Below, piece by piece: positions 4,526 to 28,341 of a stretch of 39,889 nt of DNA. Origin of the DNA: a virus. Where the stretch lies: positions 1-39,889 of IMG/VR virus record IMGVR_UViG_3300033571_007047. One strand, given 5' to 3'. The first letter of the stretch is position 1. The number at the start of each line of letters is the position of its first letter. The position numbers and the translations under genes were made by a program. The notes beneath the pieces are model-generated. The model worked only from the letters and a program-made list of their open reading frames with translations, made no database searches and had not been told where the DNA came from.

Positions 4526-5836
4526 GTGGCTAACCCCACTTTGATCACCGATGCCGAACTAACCGGCCTCCTGAAGAACGTGTACTCGCAGTTCCGTGAG
4601 AAGGTGCAGAACCTCGTCACGCCCCTCCTCGCGCAGTTGGAGAAGGGACGCTCTGGTGGCCCGCGCAATATGCGTTGGGGCGGTAACAACGTGTTCTTCG
4701 ACGTGGTGACTGGCCGTCCGGCTGGTGCCACCTTCTTGCAGGCTGGCTACTTCCCGCCCGACACGACGGCGACCGAAGTGCAGGCGAACGTCGGTATCGT
4801 CCGCGCTTACACCACCCGTCAGGTGGACGGTCTGGCGTTTGTCGGCACGCAGTCCAAGGATGCGGCCTTCACGACCATCGCCAGCAAGACGATGGAAGAA
4901 ATCAAGGACGCCTCCATGCTGCTCATGCAGCAGGCGCTGCACAACAAGGCGGACGGTGTGGTGGCCTTGATCGGTACGGCGTCGTCAACGACCTCGATTA
5001 TCGTGTCCTCGCCCTACGGCGTGGCCTCGGCGGGTCAGGGTTCGCTGCTGCTGTCGGTGGGCGACTACATCGCGGTGCTGGATACGTCCTCGTCGGACGC
5101 GGTGCTTGGCCGCTCGGCCATCACGGCGATCAGCAACAGCGGCGACAACGCCACTCTGACGCTGGGCACGGCCATCGCTGGCATGGCGGCGACGGACAAG
5201 ATCGTCAAGGCGACGGCGAGCGATACGTCGTTCAACGCCGCGATGAACGGTCTGATCAACATCACGAACCGTGGCAACGCCTACGCCTCGCTGCACAACA
5301 TCAGCAACGCGACGTACAGCATCTGGGATGCCACCCGCATGACGGCGGGCACGGACACGCCTGACGCGACCCAGCCGACCGAATCGGACATCTGGGACTT
5401 GATCCAGAAGATCTCTGGCCGTTCTGGCAAGGACGCCAACGTGAAGCCCAAGGACTTCCTGCTCATGACCACGCCTGGTCTGGCCAAGAAGCTCATGGAG
5501 AGCATGGTGGCGCAGCGTCGGTTCACGAGCAACGAGTTCAGCACCACGATCAAGGGTGGCTACAAGGCCATCGAAATCTGTGGCATCCCGTGCGTGACGG
5601 ACTACTACGTCCCCGCTGGCACGATCTACCTCCTGCACATCCCGTCGCTGGCGTGGGTGGACGCGAAGGACTGGGGCTTCGTGGAGTTCGAGGGTGCGGG
5701 TCCGTGGCGTTGGTTGCAGGGTCGCGATGCGTTCGAGACGACCTACGGCTGGTACGGCAACCTCGCCTGCCTCGCCCGTAACGCGCACGGCAGCATCACC
5801 GGCTACACCGACACGGCTCGCTACAGCCACATCTAA
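4526..5836 (+). CDS. Major capsid protein
   Basis: The 436-residue protein follows the scaffold candidate and is preceded by an AGAGGT Shine-Dalgarno sequence seven bases before the GTG start at 4526. The sequence has a helical N-arm (LLKNVYSQFREKVQNLVTPL), a long mixed alpha/beta body and a C-terminal strand region (KDWGFVEFEGAGPWRWLQG, then AFETTYGWYGNLACLARNAHG) of the kind seen at the end of HK97-fold shell proteins, where FExxYG-type motifs are common. A Ser/Thr/Ala-rich segment at about residues 150-235 may be an inserted surface domain. Codon usage is strongly biased to C-ending codons compared with neighbours, as expected for the most highly expressed gene. The call rests on position and fold-like features. 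Confidence 0.88.
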   Translation: MANPTLITDAELTGLLKNVYSQFREKVQNLVTPLLAQLEKGRSGGPRNMRWGGNNVFFDVVTGRPAGATFLQAGYFPPDTTATEVQANVGIVRAYTTRQVDGLAFVGTQSKDAAFTTIASKTMEEIKDASMLLMQQALHNKADGVVALIGTASSTTSIIVSSPYGVASAGQGSLLLSVGDYIAVLDTSSSDAVLGRSAITAISNSGDNATLTLGTAIAGMAATDKIVKATASDTSFNAAMNGLINITNRGNAYASLHNISNATYSIWDATRMTAGTDTPDATQPTESDIWDLIQKISGRSGKDANVKPKDFLLMTTPGLAKKLMESMVAQRRFTSNEFSTTIKGGYKAIEICGIPCVTDYYVPAGTIYLLHIPSLAWVDAKDWGFVEFEGAGPWRWLQGRDAFETTYGWYGNLACLARNAHGSITGYTDTARYSHI

Positions 5837-7497: not shown

Positions 7498-9020
7498 TGG
7501 CGCGGGATGTCATCACGGACTCGCAGTCGTCCATGAGTGGTGGGCTGAACACGGTCAGCGATGACTCGGCGTTGCAGCCCAACCAGTTGCGGCGTACCGA
7601 GAACGCCCGTTTGACAGACGTTGGCGCAATTACCAAGCGCGGGGGAACCCAGCGGCTTTCGACTGCCGCGATTGCCGCATACCCTGTGGCAAACGGGTTC
7701 ACCTGGAACAAGGCAGACGGCACCTCGCAGATCATGGCGGTGGTCAACGGAGTGCTAAATACCACCACGTTTGGCGCGTTGCCCATGGCGTGGACGGCCC
7801 AGTCTGGCGCGCTGTCTACCTCGACGCAGCCGACCTTCGCCCAGTTCCGTGACGCCTCGGCTGATGTGGTCTATATCAGCGATGGCGGGCTGCTAAACAA
7901 GTGGAACGGCACGACGTTGACCACGGATATTTCTGGCACGGTCAATACGTCTATCTCTGTCGTCCACAATCAACGCTTGTGGGGAGCAGGCAACGCGACG
8001 TTCCCCAACAGTATTTTCTACTCGGCGCTGAATAACGGCGATAGCCTTGGCAACGGGTCAAGCAGTGGCGGGCAGATCATTGTCCGCACCTTTGGCAACG
8101 AAGGCATCATTGGCCTTGTCAGCCTTGCCACCTCGCTGCTGATCTTCCACCGTCGCGGCGTGTCCCGTTTGACCGGCTACGGGCAGGACGACATTACCGT
8201 CGCCCCGGCTGGCATTGCCTCAGACGTTGGACTGATCGCGCCGAAGAGCATCGTGCCGGTGGGATCGGTGGCGTACTTTATCTCCGAGCGCGGGATGTAC
8301 CGCTGCAACGAGTCAGAAGTTGCGCCCGTGGCAACGGTCGATACGCCAGACCCGCTGCTGCCGATCATCAGAACGCTGAGTGCCACAGACTTTGGCAAAA
8401 TCCGCGCTGGCATCAACCGAGCCACCCGCGAACTGTGGATCACGATCCCTGGCATTGGCTGCTATCAGTACCACACGCTGCTTCAGGCGTGGAGCGGCCC
8501 GTGGAATACGGGGTGGGTGAGTCCTGACACCACAGCCTTGTTTGAGGCGTCCGATACGTCAGGCTTGCCCATCATGCTGCGAGGGGATGCGTCGGGCTGG
8601 GTCTCGCGCTGCGATGCGCCCTCGATCAACCAAGATAACGTCAGCGCCAATGGCACGGGCGGCACCACCTACACGATGGTGGCCCAGCTTCGTCGGATGT
8701 ACTGTGGCGATGGGTCGCTGGCAAAAGCCTTTCGGTTCGGGTACATCACGGCCAAGCTGAACGGGTCAGCCGACTGCACGGTGGGGTGGAGTACGGGGCA
8801 ATATGCCAACAGTATCGCCCTGCCAACCTCGACGTTCGGCCAGTGGGGCACCGGCACATGGAATTCGGCTACGTTCTGGGGTGGTGCCAGCAGCCAGAAC
8901 TATCGGGTGCAGATGGGCGGGACGGGGTATTACGCAGACATGAGCATCATCGACACCAGCATCTACTTGCCAGTTTTTAGTCAACTCCAGCTTCAGACTT
9001 TTGCACTTGGGAGGCGTTAA
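7497..9020 (+). CDS. Tail stopper / stabilisation-type protein (P22 gp10-like)
   Basis: The 507-residue protein starts with the recognisable pattern SMSGGLNTVSDDSALQPNQ followed by ENARLTDVGAITKRGGTQ, typical of large beta-rich proteins that plug the neck of short-tailed phages. The rest has repeating beta-blades (VVNGVLNTTTFG, VVYISDGGLLNKWNG, LLIFHRRGVSRLTGYG, GSVAYFISERGMYRCN), consistent with a beta-propeller as described for this class. It follows the adaptor and precedes fibre-like genes. Start ATG overlaps the upstream stop by one base. In P22 the equivalent protein closes the portal and carries the needle or fibres; the same role is inferred here. Confidence 0.8.
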   Translation: MARDVITDSQSSMSGGLNTVSDDSALQPNQLRRTENARLTDVGAITKRGGTQRLSTAAIAAYPVANGFTWNKADGTSQIMAVVNGVLNTTTFGALPMAWTAQSGALSTSTQPTFAQFRDASADVVYISDGGLLNKWNGTTLTTDISGTVNTSISVVHNQRLWGAGNATFPNSIFYSALNNGDSLGNGSSSGGQIIVRTFGNEGIIGLVSLATSLLIFHRRGVSRLTGYGQDDITVAPAGIASDVGLIAPKSIVPVGSVAYFISERGMYRCNESEVAPVATVDTPDPLLPIIRTLSATDFGKIRAGINRATRELWITIPGIGCYQYHTLLQAWSGPWNTGWVSPDTTALFEASDTSGLPIMLRGDASGWVSRCDAPSINQDNVSANGTGGTTYTMVAQLRRMYCGDGSLAKAFRFGYITAKLNGSADCTVGWSTGQYANSIALPTSTFGQWGTGTWNSATFWGGASSQNYRVQMGGTGYYADMSIIDTSIYLPVFSQLQLQTFALGRR

Positions 9021-21710: not shown

Positions 21711-21922
21711 AAGTCACGCGACAGTCCCGCCTGACCAAGCAGTGGCATACGCTGGATATTGAAGTCACACCCGATGAGTTGATCAAGATTGACAACCCGA
21801 ATCGTCGGGAGTTGATCCAGCACATCGTCCCGCATCTCAACCCTTCAGAACGTGAGTTTCTCATGACCGGCATCACCGATGCCGAATGGGACATGATCAA
21901 GGAGCCTGACGATGAGTCATAA
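21707..21922 (+). CDS. Small hypothetical early protein (71 aa)
   Basis: ATGA overlap with the initiator-like gene sets the start at 21707; the next gene begins inside its last codons. The protein is hydrophilic with an N-terminal strand (KQWHTLDIEVTPDEL) and a helical end containing PSEREFLMTGITDAEWDMI, a pattern I recognise from small phage proteins of replication regions (FLMTGIT-EWD). Function is unknown. Confidence 0.68.
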   Translation: MKVTRQSRLTKQWHTLDIEVTPDELIKIDNPNRRELIQHIVPHLNPSEREFLMTGITDAEWDMIKEPDDES

Positions 21923-22469
21923 CATCAGCTTGCCCCGCCACCGCTACGTTTACGTCGTCCCCAGCTTCGTCTTGCGTGATCCGCTGCGGACGGCGCTGAT
22001 CCCTGCCATGTGGGTGGGCGTGAGTGTTTCTCCCGGAAGATCGCTTGGCTGTCACGTCCTGCTGGAGAACGGGGCGCTGGTCGTGGACCTCCCGCTCCAT
22101 GCCCTACGGGGGGCGATGGTCGAGTACGGCCCGCTGCCGCTGTCGGAACTGGTGTCATGGGATTGCTTCGGGTGGAGTGCCGAAGCATGGCAACCGGAAG
22201 CCATCTCTGGCCTCTCCTGTGCCATTCTCAGCCCAGATCACAAGCGGGCGATGGGGAAGGGCACCCTCTGGTTCTGCATCGACCACATGGGCGATGGGTA
22301 CTCGATGGCACCAGAGCAGCACAAGCACCTGTGGATCGTGGAGAGAGAAGCGGACCATGCGCTTCTCCTCTTGCCGCAGGACCGGATGCTGATCGAAGAC
22401 AGCAGCTTCACCGTGATTGACGGCATCCCGCCGATCAAGCGGCAGTCGCACATCTGGTACGCTGAGTGA
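21912..22469 (+). CDS. Hypothetical early protein (185 aa)
   Basis: ATG at 21912 overlaps the preceding gene by eleven bases, and GGAG lies upstream. The protein is globular and beta-rich (RYVYVVPSFVLRD, VGVSVSPGRSLGCHVLLENG, GTLWFCIDHMGDGYSMAPEQ), with EHK/QHKxLWIV-like segment near residue 135-142. No domain is recognised. It is coupled to the PP-loop gene by a GTGA overlap, so the two may act in one pathway. Confidence 0.65.
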   Translation: MSHNISLPRHRYVYVVPSFVLRDPLRTALIPAMWVGVSVSPGRSLGCHVLLENGALVVDLPLHALRGAMVEYGPLPLSELVSWDCFGWSAEAWQPEAISGLSCAILSPDHKRAMGKGTLWFCIDHMGDGYSMAPEQHKHLWIVEREADHALLLLPQDRMLIEDSSFTVIDGIPPIKRQSHIWYAE

Positions 22470-23266
22470 AACGCTACCTCTCTCTCGGCGCGGGCGTTCA
22501 GTCGTCCACGCTCGCGCTGATGATTGCCAAGGGGGAAATCCCGATGGTGGATGGCGCGATCTTCTCGGACACGCAGTGGGAGCCAGCCGCTGTGTATAAG
22601 TGGCTGGACTGGCTGGAAACGCAATTGCCGTTTCCAGTCCACCGCGTGACGGCGGGGTCTATCCGCGACAGCATTTTAGCGAAGCAGGGCAAGAACTCGG
22701 CCAGATACACCAGCGTGCCGTGGCATCTGAAGCATCCGAACGGGGAACACGGCATGGGCCGTCGCCAGTGTACGCGAGAGTTCAAGATTGCGCCGATCAC
22801 CAAGGCAAAGCGGACACTGATGGGCTACCCACCACGGGTGCGGATTCCTGTGGGATCATGCGAGACGCTGATCGGGATCAGCACCGACGAAGCCAGCCGC
22901 ATGAAGGAAAGTAGAGAGCGGTGGAGCGTCAACGTGTGGCCGCTAATCGAACTCGGGATGTCGCGCAACGATTGCCTCCGCTGGATGGAGCGGAACGGCT
23001 ATCCGACGCCACCGAAGTCAAGCTGCATTGGGTGCCCGTTCCATTCGGACACGGAGTGGCGGCGTATCCGTGATACCGATCCCGAAGCGTGGGCTGACGC
23101 CATTGCACTGGATGAGATTATCCGTGCCCCGGCTCGCGGGATGAAGTCCCAGCAGTTCATGCACCGCAAGCTGCTCCCCTTAGCGCAGGTTGATCTGTCC
23201 ACCGACGAGGAGAAGGGTCAGGTCAATATGTTCGAGAACGAGTGCGAAGGGATGTGTGGCCTGTGA
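22466..23266 (+). CDS. PP-loop ATPase, PAPS-reductase/sulfotransferase-like
   Basis: The GTG at 22466 overlaps the preceding stop. The first 20 residues contain a PP-loop variant (LSLGAGVQSSTLALM) that binds ATP through its pyrophosphate. Other family marks are IFSDTQWEP (residues 32-40), RRQCTREFKIAPI with C102, and a C-terminal CIGCPFHSDTEWR zinc-type pair (C187, C190). PP-loop enzymes adenylate a substrate before sulfur or amine transfer; relatives include PAPS reductase, the DndC DNA-sulfur enzyme and tRNA thiolases. In phages such genes are frequent but of unproven role. Proximity to a C5 methyltransferase makes DNA or tRNA modification plausible, not shown. Confidence 0.8.
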   Translation: MKRYLSLGAGVQSSTLALMIAKGEIPMVDGAIFSDTQWEPAAVYKWLDWLETQLPFPVHRVTAGSIRDSILAKQGKNSARYTSVPWHLKHPNGEHGMGRRQCTREFKIAPITKAKRTLMGYPPRVRIPVGSCETLIGISTDEASRMKESRERWSVNVWPLIELGMSRNDCLRWMERNGYPTPPKSSCIGCPFHSDTEWRRIRDTDPEAWADAIALDEIIRAPARGMKSQQFMHRKLLPLAQVDLSTDEEKGQVNMFENECEGMCGL

Positions 23267-25008
23267 ACACGCTCGACGCGCATGGCGTGCTGAAGTCGGC
23301 CCTTCTTCGTGGCCGCTACGGCGCGAAAAAGAGCGGCAAGGCCATCGCCTTCCGCTGCGTCCGACACACCGACAGCACCAGCAGTGCATGGCTGGGTGAC
23401 CATGCTTGGGGATGCAGCGCCTGTGGCTTCACCGAGCCGCTGGCAACGCTGGGTGAGGCGCTGGGGGTGACCCTGCCTGACGATGCCGCCCCCTCTGGCC
23501 TGACGCTACAGGAGTACGCCGAGCGGAAGGGGCTGTCGCTGGCAGGACTGGCGAAGGCGGGCGTTGAGCAGAGAACCGGCAAGTTTGGCGATGCCATCAT
23601 TGCCATGCCGTACCGTCGTGCTGATGGCAGCGTGATCCGTACCAAGTGCCGCACCCGCAAGGGCACGTTCTGGGACAGAGACGGGGAAGGGACGCCCCTC
23701 TATGGGCAGGATGTGCTGGCCGCATCGACCGGCCCTGTGCTGATCGTTGAGGGGGAGAGCGACTGTCATGCCGGATGGCAGCGGGGCGTGACCGTGGTGG
23801 GTCTCCCAGGCGCAAGCCAGTGGAAGCCTGACTACGCTGCGCTGCTGGCAAACCGTGAGGTGATCGTATGGCAGGAGCCTGACGAGGGTGGGGCGACAAT
23901 GGTGTCAGCGATCTCGGCCTCGCTGCCCAAGGCCCGTGTCCTCCGCGAAGTGAAGCATCACGGGGAAATCGTAAAGGATATGTGCGATCTCCACCAATCG
24001 GTGCAATCGCATGGCGACGACTGGGCGACGGTGTGGGCTGGCATCCTCACGACCGCCACGCCCATCGGGGCCGAGCCGCCTGCCGTGGCGTTCGACAGCA
24101 TCACGGGTGACACGCTGTTGCAGATGCTGGACGAGAAGCTCGCGCCCGTGGATGCCGTCCCCACGCCGTTGGAGTTGTGGAACAAGGCGTGTGGGTCGAG
24201 CGGGGGTGGGGTGGGCATTGCGCGGAGTTGGCTGATCACCATTGGCGCCAACACCGGCACGGGCAAGTCGCTGATCGGCATTAACCTCGCCGCTCGCGCC
24301 ATTGAACACGGCGAGACGGTGACCTTCATCTCGCTGGAGATGGGGAGGAGTGAGTTGGCGACTCGACTGCTGTCGGTGGTCAGTGGAGAGTCGGTGGTAG
24401 AGCTAGAGCAAGGCCCCGCGTTCAACCAAGAGGCGTACAAGCGAGCCGCACGGTGCCTGGACGAGACCCGCGAGCGCACAGGGGGCCATGTGCTGGTCAA
24501 CCGTCGTCCGTTGAGCAAGATGTCAGATGTCGCGGCGTGTATTAAGCACCATGCGGAAGTCAGTGGGTCCAGTTATTTCGTGATGGACTACATCCAGTTG
24601 GCGAGTGTGAGCAACATGGCGAGCATCCATGACCGCATCGAAGCCGTCTCGCATCAACTCCGCGAACTCACGCAGCGGCTGCACGTGCGGATGGTCACGC
24701 TGTCACAGTTCAATCGGCAGACCAGTGCGAACCGAGCCGAGCGACCGATTAGTCAGGGCTTGATGGGTGGGTCAGCCATTGAGAACGACAGCCACCAGGT
24801 GCTGCTGTTCGATCACTCCCGCTTTACCCGTTCAGGCAACTTGGCGGACACATGGCTGATCATTGACAAGAACCGCGTGGGCGGAGTGCATGATATCCCT
24901 TGTTGTTGGGACTTCCGCACTCTGCGCTTGACACAGCGGACGATCAGCATCCGCGAAGCCGAAGAGAAGCATGGCCCGATGCTCCCCAAGTGGAAGGAGA
25001 GAAATTGA
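23263..25008 (+). CDS. Primase-helicase fusion (TOPRIM + DnaB-like), T7 gp4-like
   Basis: The GTG at 23263 overlaps the PP-loop stop (GTGA); a GTG at 23242 is possible but less coupled. The 581-residue protein has an N-terminal zinc-binding site (C32, H35, C51, C54), a TOPRIM core (LIVEGESD at 160-167, EPDEGG at 205-210) and a RecA-fold DnaB helicase part: Walker A GANTGTGKS (328-336), SLEMGRSELATRLL, Walker B-like YFVMDYIQL, and QFNRQ and GSAIENDSHQVLLF further on. It would unwind DNA 5'-3' and make RNA primers for lagging-strand synthesis at the replication fork. No phage DNA polymerase gene is seen, so the host polymerase is presumably used. Confidence 0.93.
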   Translation: MNTLDAHGVLKSALLRGRYGAKKSGKAIAFRCVRHTDSTSSAWLGDHAWGCSACGFTEPLATLGEALGVTLPDDAAPSGLTLQEYAERKGLSLAGLAKAGVEQRTGKFGDAIIAMPYRRADGSVIRTKCRTRKGTFWDRDGEGTPLYGQDVLAASTGPVLIVEGESDCHAGWQRGVTVVGLPGASQWKPDYAALLANREVIVWQEPDEGGATMVSAISASLPKARVLREVKHHGEIVKDMCDLHQSVQSHGDDWATVWAGILTTATPIGAEPPAVAFDSITGDTLLQMLDEKLAPVDAVPTPLELWNKACGSSGGGVGIARSWLITIGANTGTGKSLIGINLAARAIEHGETVTFISLEMGRSELATRLLSVVSGESVVELEQGPAFNQEAYKRAARCLDETRERTGGHVLVNRRPLSKMSDVAACIKHHAEVSGSSYFVMDYIQLASVSNMASIHDRIEAVSHQLRELTQRLHVRMVTLSQFNRQTSANRAERPISQGLMGGSAIENDSHQVLLFDHSRFTRSGNLADTWLIIDKNRVGGVHDIPCCWDFRTLRLTQRTISIREAEEKHGPMLPKWKERN

Positions 25009-25457
25009 CCCTCACGTTTACGGTCCCCTGGGCTGCGCTCTGCTCTGACAATCGCAAGTTCAAGTACCGCTACGTCCTCTCTCCGCAGTACCGAGCCGCC
25101 AAACTCTTGGTGGGGACCATCGCCAAAGAGGCGGCAAAAAAAGCTGGCTGGCCCCTTGTTGTCCTTGACTTGGGGCTGTACGTTCTGGTCCGTGAGCCTG
25201 ACCGCCGCCGGCGCGACTTGAACTTCAGCAAGAATCTGAAAGACGGGATCACGGACGTTGGCGGGGTGTGGGTGGATGACCGGCAAGTGCGGGATGAACG
25301 ATGGGTGTTTCAGCCTGCTGAGAAAGGCAAGACGGCAGGCGCAACGATCACGATCTGGAGGTTGGATGCTGTGGCAGATGTGGGTGTTCTGGCTGCTGGT
25401 GCTAGTGGCGTTGCTAGTCGCCGCCGAAACCGCCCATCTCGACGCACGGGCGCGTGA
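25005..25457 (+). CDS. rusA: RusA-like Holliday junction resolvase
   Basis: The TTG at 25005 overlaps the preceding TGA (TTGA), has AAGGAG upstream, and begins a chain directly at the first strand of the RusA fold (LTLTFTVPW), so I prefer it to the remote upstream start at 24900. RusA hallmarks follow: SPQYRAAK helix, PDRRRRDLNFSKNLKD (residues 65-80) and VWVDDRQV (88-95) with the acidic metal ligands D71, D91 and D92. The enzyme resolves four-way junctions made during recombination-dependent replication or before packaging. The C-terminal 30 residues (after about 120) are Arg/Ala-rich and not conserved; they overlap the next small gene. Confidence 0.85.
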   Translation: MTLTFTVPWAALCSDNRKFKYRYVLSPQYRAAKLLVGTIAKEAAKKAGWPLVVLDLGLYVLVREPDRRRRDLNFSKNLKDGITDVGGVWVDDRQVRDERWVFQPAEKGKTAGATITIWRLDAVADVGVLAAGASGVASRRRNRPSRRTGA

Positions 25458-25494: not shown

Positions 25495-25658
25495 GCTATG
25501 ACGATTGGGACATCCAGACCGAAGCTGATGAGTTTGCCTACGAGCGGGCGCAGGACGAAGCGATCAAACGGAGAGCCAAAGCACAGTGGCAAGAGGACCG
25601 CGACACGGGGATGGAGTTGGACCCGCTCCTCTTTGAAGAGCCAGAGGAAGAGGCATGA
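25491..25658 (+). CDS. Small acidic protein (55 aa)
   Basis: GTG at 25491 overlaps the previous TGA (GTGA), and TGA at 25656-25658 overlaps the methyltransferase ATG. The product is hydrophilic and helical, with a Glu-rich end (LLFEEPEEEA) and an alternating acidic/basic centre (YERAQDEAIKRRAKAQWQED). It is too short for a recognised domain. Its existence rests on coupling on both sides and on SD-like GGAGATG upstream. Confidence 0.6.
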   Translation: MSYDDWDIQTEADEFAYERAQDEAIKRRAKAQWQEDRDTGMELDPLLFEEPEEEA

Positions 25659-26803
25659 CCTACGCCGAGTTGTTTGCGGGGGCGGGTGGCATGAGTCTGG
25701 GCCTTGAGGCCGGTGGCTTTCACGCTGCCGCCCACGCCGAGATTGAGCCACACGCTCGCGCCGTGTTGCGGCACCGTTGGCCTGACACGCGGCTGGATGG
25801 CGATGTCATGCAGATCAACGGTGCAGACTACACCGGCATCACCCTGCTGTCTGGCGGCTCGCCGTGCCAGGACTTGTCCGTGGCTGGCAAACGGGCAGGG
25901 CTGACCGGCTCACGTTCGTCGCTGTTCCATCAACAAGTCCGCATCTGGCACGAGTCCGGTGCGCCATACCTTCTCTGGGAGAACGTGGCCGGTGCCCTCT
26001 CTAGCAACAAAGGACGGGATTTCGCCACCGTCCTATCAACCATCGTGGGTTCCACCGTCGCTGTTCCAGCAGACGGTTGGCGAGGCGGCGGTGGTGTGGT
26101 TGCAGGCCGTGACGCCGTGGCCGCATTCCGCGTGCTTGACCTGCAACACTTCGGCCCCCCTCAACGCCGGGTGCGTGTCTTTGTCCTCTGTTCTCGAGCC
26201 GGTGGATGCGATCCCGCCGAAGTTCTTTCTCTCGCAGAAGGCGTGTGTGGGCATCCTTCGCCGCGCCAACAGTCGCGGGAAAGCACTGCCGCCCGCGTTG
26301 GAGGCGGCGTTGACAGCAGTGTAGCCTTTCACCACACGCAGACGCCGATCAGCGGGGAGGTGTCGCCTGCCGTTGGTCGGACGACCAACGGCATGGGAGT
26401 GATGGAGGTGGTCGTCGGCAACAGCGGGATGGAGTCGTGGAAGACCGTCGATGTAGCGATTGGGTTGGCGGCACGGGATGCGAAGGGTACCAATAACGAC
26501 GTTATTGGTACCTTGGACTTCGGTGGGCACGGGGGGAGTTACAACGGGCAGGATGCGTACAGTGGGCGCATCCTGCCGAGCGGTGGTCGCCCTCGTCGCC
26601 TCACGCCGCTGGAGTGCGAACGGCTGATGTCATGGCCCGACCAGTGGACCGCGACGGGCCGTAAGGACGACGGCACCGAGTACCAGCTATCGGACACCGC
26701 TCGGTATCGGCTGTGTGGCAACGGGGTGGGGTCGGTGTGTGCGGAGTGGATCGCCAGGAGGCTGCATGATGCCATACAACGTCAAGAGGGTACTGCGGGG
26801 TGA
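25655..26803 (+). CDS. DNA (cytosine-5) methyltransferase
   Basis: The ATG at 25655 overlaps the preceding stop. Motifs of C5-methyltransferases are in order: I (ELFAGAGGMSLG, SAM binding, residues 5-16), IV (GGSPCQDLS with catalytic C71), VI (ENV, 109-111), VIII (PQRRVRV, about 169-175), IX (RRLTPLECERLM) and X (GNGVGSVCAEWI). The target-recognition region between VIII and IX (about residues 180-300) contains three perfect inverted repeats in its DNA and shows reduced complexity. It would protect phage DNA from host restriction or regulate it. No partner restriction endonuclease was found, so it is a solitary phage enzyme. Specificity cannot be read from sequence. Confidence 0.93.
   Translation: MTYAELFAGAGGMSLGLEAGGFHAAAHAEIEPHARAVLRHRWPDTRLDGDVMQINGADYTGITLLSGGSPCQDLSVAGKRAGLTGSRSSLFHQQVRIWHESGAPYLLWENVAGALSSNKGRDFATVLSTIVGSTVAVPADGWRGGGGVVAGRDAVAAFRVLDLQHFGPPQRRVRVFVLCSRAGGCDPAEVLSLAEGVCGHPSPRQQSRESTAARVGGGVDSSVAFHHTQTPISGEVSPAVGRTTNGMGVMEVVVGNSGMESWKTVDVAIGLAARDAKGTNNDVIGTLDFGGHGGSYNGQDAYSGRILPSGGRPRRLTPLECERLMSWPDQWTATGRKDDGTEYQLSDTARYRLCGNGVGSVCAEWIARRLHDAIQRQEGTAG
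26369..26392. repeat. Inverted repeat 1 in the methyltransferase gene (11-bp arms)
   Basis: GCCGTTGGTCG at 26369-26379 is perfectly complementary to 26382-26392 across a two-base centre (GA). It starts exactly on a codon boundary and encodes AVGRTTNG. Confidence 0.95.
26486..26512. repeat. Inverted repeat 2 in the methyltransferase gene (13-bp arms)
   Basis: GGTACCAATAACG at 26486-26498 and its exact reverse complement at 26500-26512 flank a single A. The 27 bases are nine whole codons (GTNNDVIGT). The arms end in GGTACC. This is the strongest palindrome I found in the window. Confidence 0.97.
26547..26577. repeat. Inverted repeat 3 in the methyltransferase gene (11-bp arms)
   Basis: GGCAGGATGCG at 26547-26557 pairs perfectly with 26567-26577 across a nine-base loop. 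Unlike the first two, it is not aligned with codon boundaries. Confidence 0.95.
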
Positions 26804-27473: not shown

Positions 27474-28303
27474 GAGAGGTACTGGAGGCCGAGGGCGAGG
27501 CGGTGCGGAAGCTGAAGGACGCCCTGTTAATCGCACAGGGGAGCCTGAAGCAGACCACCCTAAAGTCGGCCCGAGCGGTGAGTCTCCGCGAGGAAATAGC
27601 GGCACTGAAGGCCGAGATTGCGATTCTCACGCACGAACGGGACGAGGCAAGGATTGACCCTCGTATCGACCCGAAAATGCCGCACATCGCCGTGGTGCAG
27701 CGGATCGTGAGCATTATCCGCACCCACGGGCCGATCCCGTTCACCGAAATCTTCTCGCATTTGCCCAAAACGACGGGATTAACGGGCAGCTACATCTCGT
27801 TCGTCTTGAAGAAGCTCAAAAGCTTTCGGGTGATCGAATGCACCCGGAAAGGCTACCCGAAATTCGTGTGGGTGTTCATTCCCGAAAACCAATCGCCCCA
27901 ATTTACGCCCCAAAAGAGTGAAAAAAGCGTGATGCTGCGGCACATGGGCATCTATCGGGTGATCTGTACGGACGGGCGAAGATTCGACCGGCTCGAATTC
28001 CACCGGCCAGACCTGACATGGAGCAACAAGCACACGACGGTCGAGATGGATGAGATCGCGGAGTTGGCCTATGTGCCAGACCATGCCACCCACAAGAGCG
28101 GGGTCAAGCACTTAGACATCTACGCGCACGCCTTTGTCAGCATCGACGACTGCATCATCCCGAAGCTGAAGCCTTCGGACGGGACGTTGCCCAAGTGGGT
28201 CCACCCGATCCGGGCGAGGGCACTGAATGCGAAAGCAGCCCGTCCGAGGCCAGAAAGGCCCGTAGAACCGGCCAAAAAGGACTTTGGCGACCCGTTCCTA
28301 TGA
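27470..28303 (+). CDS. Coiled-coil plus winged-helix protein (277 aa)
   Basis: GTG at 27470 overlaps the previous stop (GTGA). Residues about 1-62 are a coiled coil (EALRKL-like EAVRKLKDALLIAQGSLK, then LREEIAALKAEIAILTHERD). Residues about 72-140 resemble a winged helix (VVQRIVSIIRTHGPIPFTEI, GSYISFVLKKLKSFRVIECT, KGYPKFVWVFIPE). The C-terminal half is beta-containing with no recognised domain, ending in a Pro/Arg-rich tail. It could be a transcription or replication regulator. It is the last gene of the rightward replication block. Confidence 0.7.
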   Translation: MREVLEAEGEAVRKLKDALLIAQGSLKQTTLKSARAVSLREEIAALKAEIAILTHERDEARIDPRIDPKMPHIAVVQRIVSIIRTHGPIPFTEIFSHLPKTTGLTGSYISFVLKKLKSFRVIECTRKGYPKFVWVFIPENQSPQFTPQKSEKSVMLRHMGIYRVICTDGRRFDRLEFHRPDLTWSNKHTTVEMDEIAELAYVPDHATHKSGVKHLDIYAHAFVSIDDCIIPKLKPSDGTLPKWVHPIRARALNAKAARPRPERPVEPAKKDFGDPFL

Positions 28304-28308
28304 ACCGC

Positions 28309-28341
28309 AAACCCCAGCACTCTCGAGAGTCGCTGGGGTTT
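28309..28341. terminator. Bidirectional rho-independent terminator
   Basis: AAACCCCAGC (28309-28318) pairs perfectly with GCTGGGGTTT (28332-28341); the loop contains a second palindrome, ACTCTC/GAGAGT. A-tracts on the 5' side and T-tracts on the 3' side allow termination in both directions, between the convergent rightward and leftward blocks. Confidence 0.92.

Follow-up and report, generated by a model that had tools for sequence, protein, structure and literature searches.

Template switching as the probable source of perfect palindromes in the target-recognition region of a phage C5-methyltransferase

The 39,889-nt viral record IMGVR_UViG_3300033571_007047, analysed over its full length and referred to here as the window, carries a DNA methyltransferase gene with three perfect inverted repeats (IRs) inside about 210 bp of its target-recognition region (TRD). 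This raises the question of what process places several palindromes within the stretch of a protein that specifies DNA recognition. All three IRs had been reported by a first-pass annotation of this DNA and all three were present; its arm lengths of 13 and 11 bp were correct for IR2 and IR3, while the 11 bp given for IR1 is in fact 12 bp (Table 1). Its codon remarks also stood, in that the inner 24 nt of IR1 begin on a codon boundary and IR2 occupies whole codons exactly. Below, W denotes the gene of the window's phage and L-numbers denote relatives.

Table 1. Features of the methyltransferase locus in the window
Feature	Position	Strand	Description
RusA-like Holliday-junction resolvase gene	24900..25457	+	Upstream of the methyltransferase gene, context only; phrog_34, E 2e-13
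DNA cytosine-C5 methyltransferase gene (W)	25655..26803	+	382 aa; PF00145, E 3e-39; PHROG DNA methyltransferase families; PDB matches M.HhaI, M.HaeIII
Target-recognition region (TRD)	26171..26593	+	141 aa, between motif VIII (PQRR) and motif IX (RRLTPLEC); from alignment and a low-confidence AF2 stretch
IR1	26368..26393	+	12-bp arms TGCCGTTGGTCG / CGACCAACGGCA, 2-nt centre (ga); encodes (P)AVGRTTNG(M)
IR2	26486..26512	+	13-bp arms, 1-nt centre (a); nine codons, GTNNDVIGT
IR3	26547..26577	+	11-bp arms, 9-nt loop; encodes GQDAYSGRILP

The PF00145 profile match spans residues 1-370 of W, which is the whole catalytic core, the motifs SPCQDLS, WENV and PQRRVRVF are readable in the sequence, and the nearest solved structures are M.HhaI and M.HaeIII. 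Judged by these family features, the product is a C5 cytosine DNA methyltransferase. Alignment with relatives showed that the TRD is hypervariable and modular. TRDs are strings of modules of ~25-45 residues each, whose order and number vary among relatives with the same catalytic core and which recur even in very distant phages; W itself has few. A row of several such modules between motifs VIII and IX gives, at the level of sequence, the tandem-TRD layout of multispecific-type phage methyltransferases. The multispecific phage C5-methyltransferases of SPR, phi3T and H2 (cited in PMC8936443) share this plan, with a core, consecutive modules between motifs VIII and IX and TL-type cores; palindromes inside their modules are not described in the literature searched. 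An AF2 model of the W protein has low confidence over residues 198-312, with pLDDT <50 in the TRD, so the residues encoded by the IRs cannot be placed on it.

With spacers of up to 20 nt allowed, IR1, IR2 and IR3 are the three longest perfect IRs of the window, followed by one with 10-bp arms at 28309. That IR spans 28309-28341, has arms AAACCCCAGC and GCTGGGGTTT with a 13-nt loop and begins 5 bp past an open reading frame ending at 28303; it looks like an intrinsic or bidirectional terminator. The earlier annotation had judged a 13-bp palindrome very unlikely by chance and had proposed a genome-wide count and a shuffled-codon control, and both checks, at arms of at least 10 or at least 11 bp, put the IRs far above expectation. 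Under a first-order Markov null, the whole window should hold 0.17 IRs with arms of at least 11 bp and a spacer of at most 12 nt, and none of 120 simulations gave more than 2; the window has 3, and a single stretch of 210 bp contains them all. Synonymous-codon shuffling of the W TRD gave 0.02 expected IRs of at least 10 bp against 3 seen.

The excess was shared by relatives, which were drawn from scans of viral contigs and bacterial genomes. The TRDs of 23 related genes, one of them from a more distant phage (L378) and the others from the window's relatives, contained 29 IRs of at least 10 bp in 13.7 kb, against 0.42 expected from the synonymous shuffle. The catalytic parts of the same genes held 1 such IR in 17.7 kb, and flanking DNA of the window's group held 13 IRs in 200 kb. 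A set of 158 more distant methyltransferases had no clear excess (9 IRs in 119 kb of TRD versus 56 in 776 kb of flank), and two of those nine lie in L019 and L028, which belong with the window's relatives but escaped the sorting pattern. IRs were also found in genes of Stenotrophomonas and [Pseudomonas] boreopolis genomes and of phage contigs (L091, L092, L436-L438), and the feature thus extends beyond one clade, though it occurs chiefly in one phage group. With one mismatch allowed, 1 IR of at least 11 bp was observed against 1.8 expected; IRs are either perfect or absent. Short-palindrome counts are somewhat raised in GC-rich genomes, which might suggest chance, composition or an assembly artefact, but both sets of controls argue otherwise. 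The same IRs recur in contigs and samples that are independent of one another, cultured Xanthomonadaceae carry them in their genomes (L091, L092), three separate records (L023, L024, L025) carry identical IRs, and whole IRs, at 20-37 bp, are far shorter than a read. We regard a chance or artefactual origin as vanishingly improbable.

The longest palindrome among these TRDs lies in a module named EIARC, where the arms of L438, perfect over 18 bp at position 794 of its open frame, are an extended form of the 12-bp arms in L436. Looking for this module in a single bacterial genus and in one collection of phages gained little, a search for further copies of the IR1 module returned just the two contigs already known, and a collection scan for CGAGCGT-N6-ACGCTCG was discarded as too unspecific. 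Palindromes outside methyltransferase genes were seen in L004 (and L005), where a dense cluster of overlapping IRs built from CACACGTG and CTCGAG units, with arms up to 14 bp, lies downstream of the methyltransferase at 7527-7954, and in L181, which has a 16-bp IR with a 7-nt loop at 5049-5087.

Many modules hold one IR. Many IRs overlap the (T/S)-(L/V/I/M) core and others lie a few residues off. In M.HhaI and M.HaeIII, DNA is read by loops made up of the TL motif and its neighbouring residues on either side (PMC2413257). IR2 stops at the T of the presumed TL core of W, whose VIGTL falls over the ITL (T250-L251) of M.HhaI in a weak alignment. The symmetry centre lies on a codon boundary or a middle codon base in IR1, IR2 and IR3, so that codons pair with codons; by a hand count that is suggestive and stands outside the main argument, this holds for 11 of 19 distinct IRs, where one third would be expected.

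The first-pass annotation had offered the repeats as recombination seams left by the swapping of recognition modules between phages. Modules are indeed exchanged between phages, and their number and order clearly differ among genes with a nearly equal catalytic part, but the IRs sit inside modules and not between them. In distant IR-free phages (L178-L194, L409-L413) the corresponding modules have the same length and keep their left and right halves together, DARGNGDGSTVNTLTGDHQNRVTDY in L181 being an example, and therefore the palindromes reflect substitution within modules and are neither inserted DNA nor joints. Different modules also carry unrelated arms, hence share no homology at which exchange could occur, and we consider seams a very improbable account indeed. 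A mobile palindromic element was ruled out on the same observation of substitutions at unchanged length. The suggestion that the IRs are binding sites for the enzyme itself did not hold up, as arm sequences and spacings (0-10 nt) vary between IRs with no common motif.

We then compared homologous IRs, with the comparison limited to perfect IRs and ancestral states read from homologues. Under that limit, all differences between arms were both-sided, with up to two pairs changed per comparison: two for W against L009 and for L091 against L378, and one each for L023 against L172, L030 against L172 and L019 against L028. A single T.G pair occurred at two related sites, in L026 and L032. Relative to synonymous sites in the flanks the arms appear slow-changing, for which selection on the stem or protein constraint on both arms are alternative accounts. 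The left arm of IR3 is identical in L007 and close in L004 while the right arm is absent from both; because these relatives share the left arm without the right, the right arm is probably a newly made reverse-complement copy of the left. The proposal that relatives be examined for loss of arms thus gave a mixed result: arms are absent from L003, L004, L008 and L089, and other relatives retain them with both-sided changes.

The centres of homologous IRs differed in a second way, by inversion. In the module KGPLLSAER.., L023 has tcgctg where L014 and L172 have cagcga, L028 has tcgctc where L019 has gagcga, and L026 and L030 have tcg where L417 has cga. In the module DARGNG.., L030 has tcgt (encoding VV) and L019 has acga (DD), and in HHTQTPISG.. 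the ga centre of IR1 in W is tc in L009, beside the two arm changes given above. Between L023 and L014, both 10-bp arms match exactly, as do the 36 nt that follow, and the sole difference is a flip of the six bases at the centre. L013, L014, L172 and L023, which the flips separate, group together in the tree and have catalytic DNA with 89-92.5% identity. Counted together, the inversion pairs with centres of 2-6 nt number five and come from three module types, one of which has IRs with two unrelated sets of arms; to these may be added a one-base centre (t/a, L091/L437), for which a point change is equally possible. The flips exchange SL for QR, SL for ER, KSL for KRL and VV for DD. A search for a flipped copy in a close relative of the window's own phage found none. 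Most of the changed residues fall immediately on the N-terminal side of TL, in the interval that separates the two contact trimers described in PMC2413257, and by analogy with those enzymes an effect on methylation specificity is plausible.

We suggest, with a probability of about 0.8, that recurrent short-range template switching by DNA polymerase within TRD modules creates, perfects and flips these palindromes and rewrites residues where divergence is free. In copying a short, imperfect IR, a polymerase would leave one side for the nascent or opposite strand, copy the other arm as its reverse complement and then return. Either the arms would become perfectly complementary, so that a palindrome is created, extended or repaired, or a few central bases would be flipped. 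Each event would leave the frame intact and exchange one or several adjacent residues that surround the TL core of a recognition module or lie next to it, and the agent would presumably be a replicative polymerase. This explanation is preferred because arm homogenization together with spacer inversion at arms >9 bp is the published footprint of the process. In coding genes of S. cerevisiae, spacer inversion was seen only at arms >9 bp, can be undone and alters no more than two residues (PMC8604942). In RNA-gene hairpins, perfect stems can arise and be maintained by template switching, which makes compensatory changes at several bases at once (PMC8794818), and quasipalindrome correction, whose first examples came from yeast CYC1 and phage T4, has been well studied in E. 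coli (PMC7202029). Both parts of that footprint are read from the sequences of the relatives, where arms are perfected by multi-base changes and spacers are exact reverse complements between kept arms, and of the origins put forward by the earlier annotation, template switching is the one that the comparison bears out.

Paired changes and the near absence of broken stems would also be expected if the IRs were nucleic-acid hairpins under selection and kept by compensatory mutation, whether for mRNA pausing or control or as single-stranded DNA or cruciforms in packaging or recombination. The stems are predicted to be strong, with an RNA fold z of -4.1 and DNA hairpins of -10 to -13.6 kcal/mol, and the control of synthesis by mRNA hairpins, raised by the first reading, may be an added role of the IRs. 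Selection on a stem, however, gives no reason for a loop to turn into its exact reverse complement, as found in several modules. Pairing is almost entirely Watson-Crick, and mRNA-strand G.U is not enriched at stem ends (4 GT/TG against 2 CA among 18 mismatches). The near-identical genes L018 and L022 have no palindromes, and no Rfam family matched at the gathering threshold, which gives no grounds for assigning the IRs to a known structured RNA. Selected hairpins therefore seem to us an improbable explanation, and as a caution for other data, paired changes in a stem need not signal selection on that stem.

Exact micro-inversions could alternatively be the work of a dedicated enzyme, either a site-specific invertase or a RusA-type nuclease acting on an extruded cruciform, in which case inversion would be programmed. 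Invertible segments are known in bacterial genes, and a RusA-like resolvase gene lies upstream of W. Centres of 1-10 bp between unlike arm sequences do not suit a sequence-specific invertase, though, and the window record had no match to serine recombinase/invertase (PF00239) or tyrosine integrase (PF00589) domains, which leaves the locus outside the definition of an inverton. It likewise had no match to reverse transcriptase (PF00078), the mark of a diversity-generating retroelement. The RusA-like gene also adjoins the methyltransferase in L030, L019 and the IR-free L004, with a fragment in L002, and it was not found near many IR-bearing genes within the flanks examined. A link between this neighbour and IR-bearing genes was dropped, as the association is inconsistent across relatives, and a dedicated enzyme appears very unlikely. 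A change of DNA specificity by inversion at inverted repeats, which could occur here, is known from phase-variable methyltransferases such as pneumococcal Type I hsdS (PMC4190663), but there whole domains are exchanged, in contrast to the 1-10 bp centres and lack of a detected invertase domain here.

Template switching should act genome-wide, yet the IRs cluster in one gene and mostly in one phage group. Such events would become fixed in the TRD, which is free and perhaps favoured to change, and be discarded by the rest of the gene and genome. We infer that the TRD, especially the stretch beside TL, tolerates or rewards blocks of changed residues that are purged elsewhere, and diversifying selection on methylation specificity would explain the confinement. 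It is possible, though doubtful, that the palindromes are themselves kept by selection as a reversible switch in which template switching often flips the 1-10 nt centres, at high frequency, and so toggles the residues around the TL core. Were this so, a phage population would hold several methylation specificities and escape restriction without a dedicated recombinase.

The palindromes described here resemble published template-switch cases (PMC8604942, PMC7202029, PMC8794818) in several respects: the arms are homogenized and exceed 9 bp, the short centres are exactly inverted, a single event changes several amino acids, and events recur. Those cases are scattered single genes, whereas here the IRs are concentrated in one functional region of one phage gene, several to a gene and spread over many independent modules. 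The mitochondrial coding palindromes of Nematomorpha (PMC6649704) are likewise perfect IRs retained in protein-coding sequence with both arms coding, but they reach 284 bp and lie in conserved respiratory genes, as opposed to 10-18 bp, a hypervariable recognition region and flipped centres. A literature search of open-licence papers found the mechanism described, though not for the recognition domains of methyltransferases, and turned up no account of palindromes that cluster and flip in phages. We view this as a known kind of mutation in an unexpected and functionally pointed place. If the template-switching reading is right, phage methyltransferase recognition domains would be natural records, and perhaps users, of palindrome-driven multi-residue rewriting with back-and-forth flips, a mechanism known so far mostly from scattered cases, and phages would have a simple route to change which restriction enzymes they resist.

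Two further observations concern the phage itself. The closest relative of the methyltransferase in a bacterial genome is on a Gemmatimonas MAG contig (L089, JAAVWC010000025.1), with 64-67% identity and a TRD without an IR, and from this relationship Gemmatimonadota may be among the hosts of the W phage group. Phage genes at 21912-23266 of the window have matches to a ferredoxin family and to phosphoadenosine phosphosulfate reductase, functions of auxiliary sulfur metabolism.
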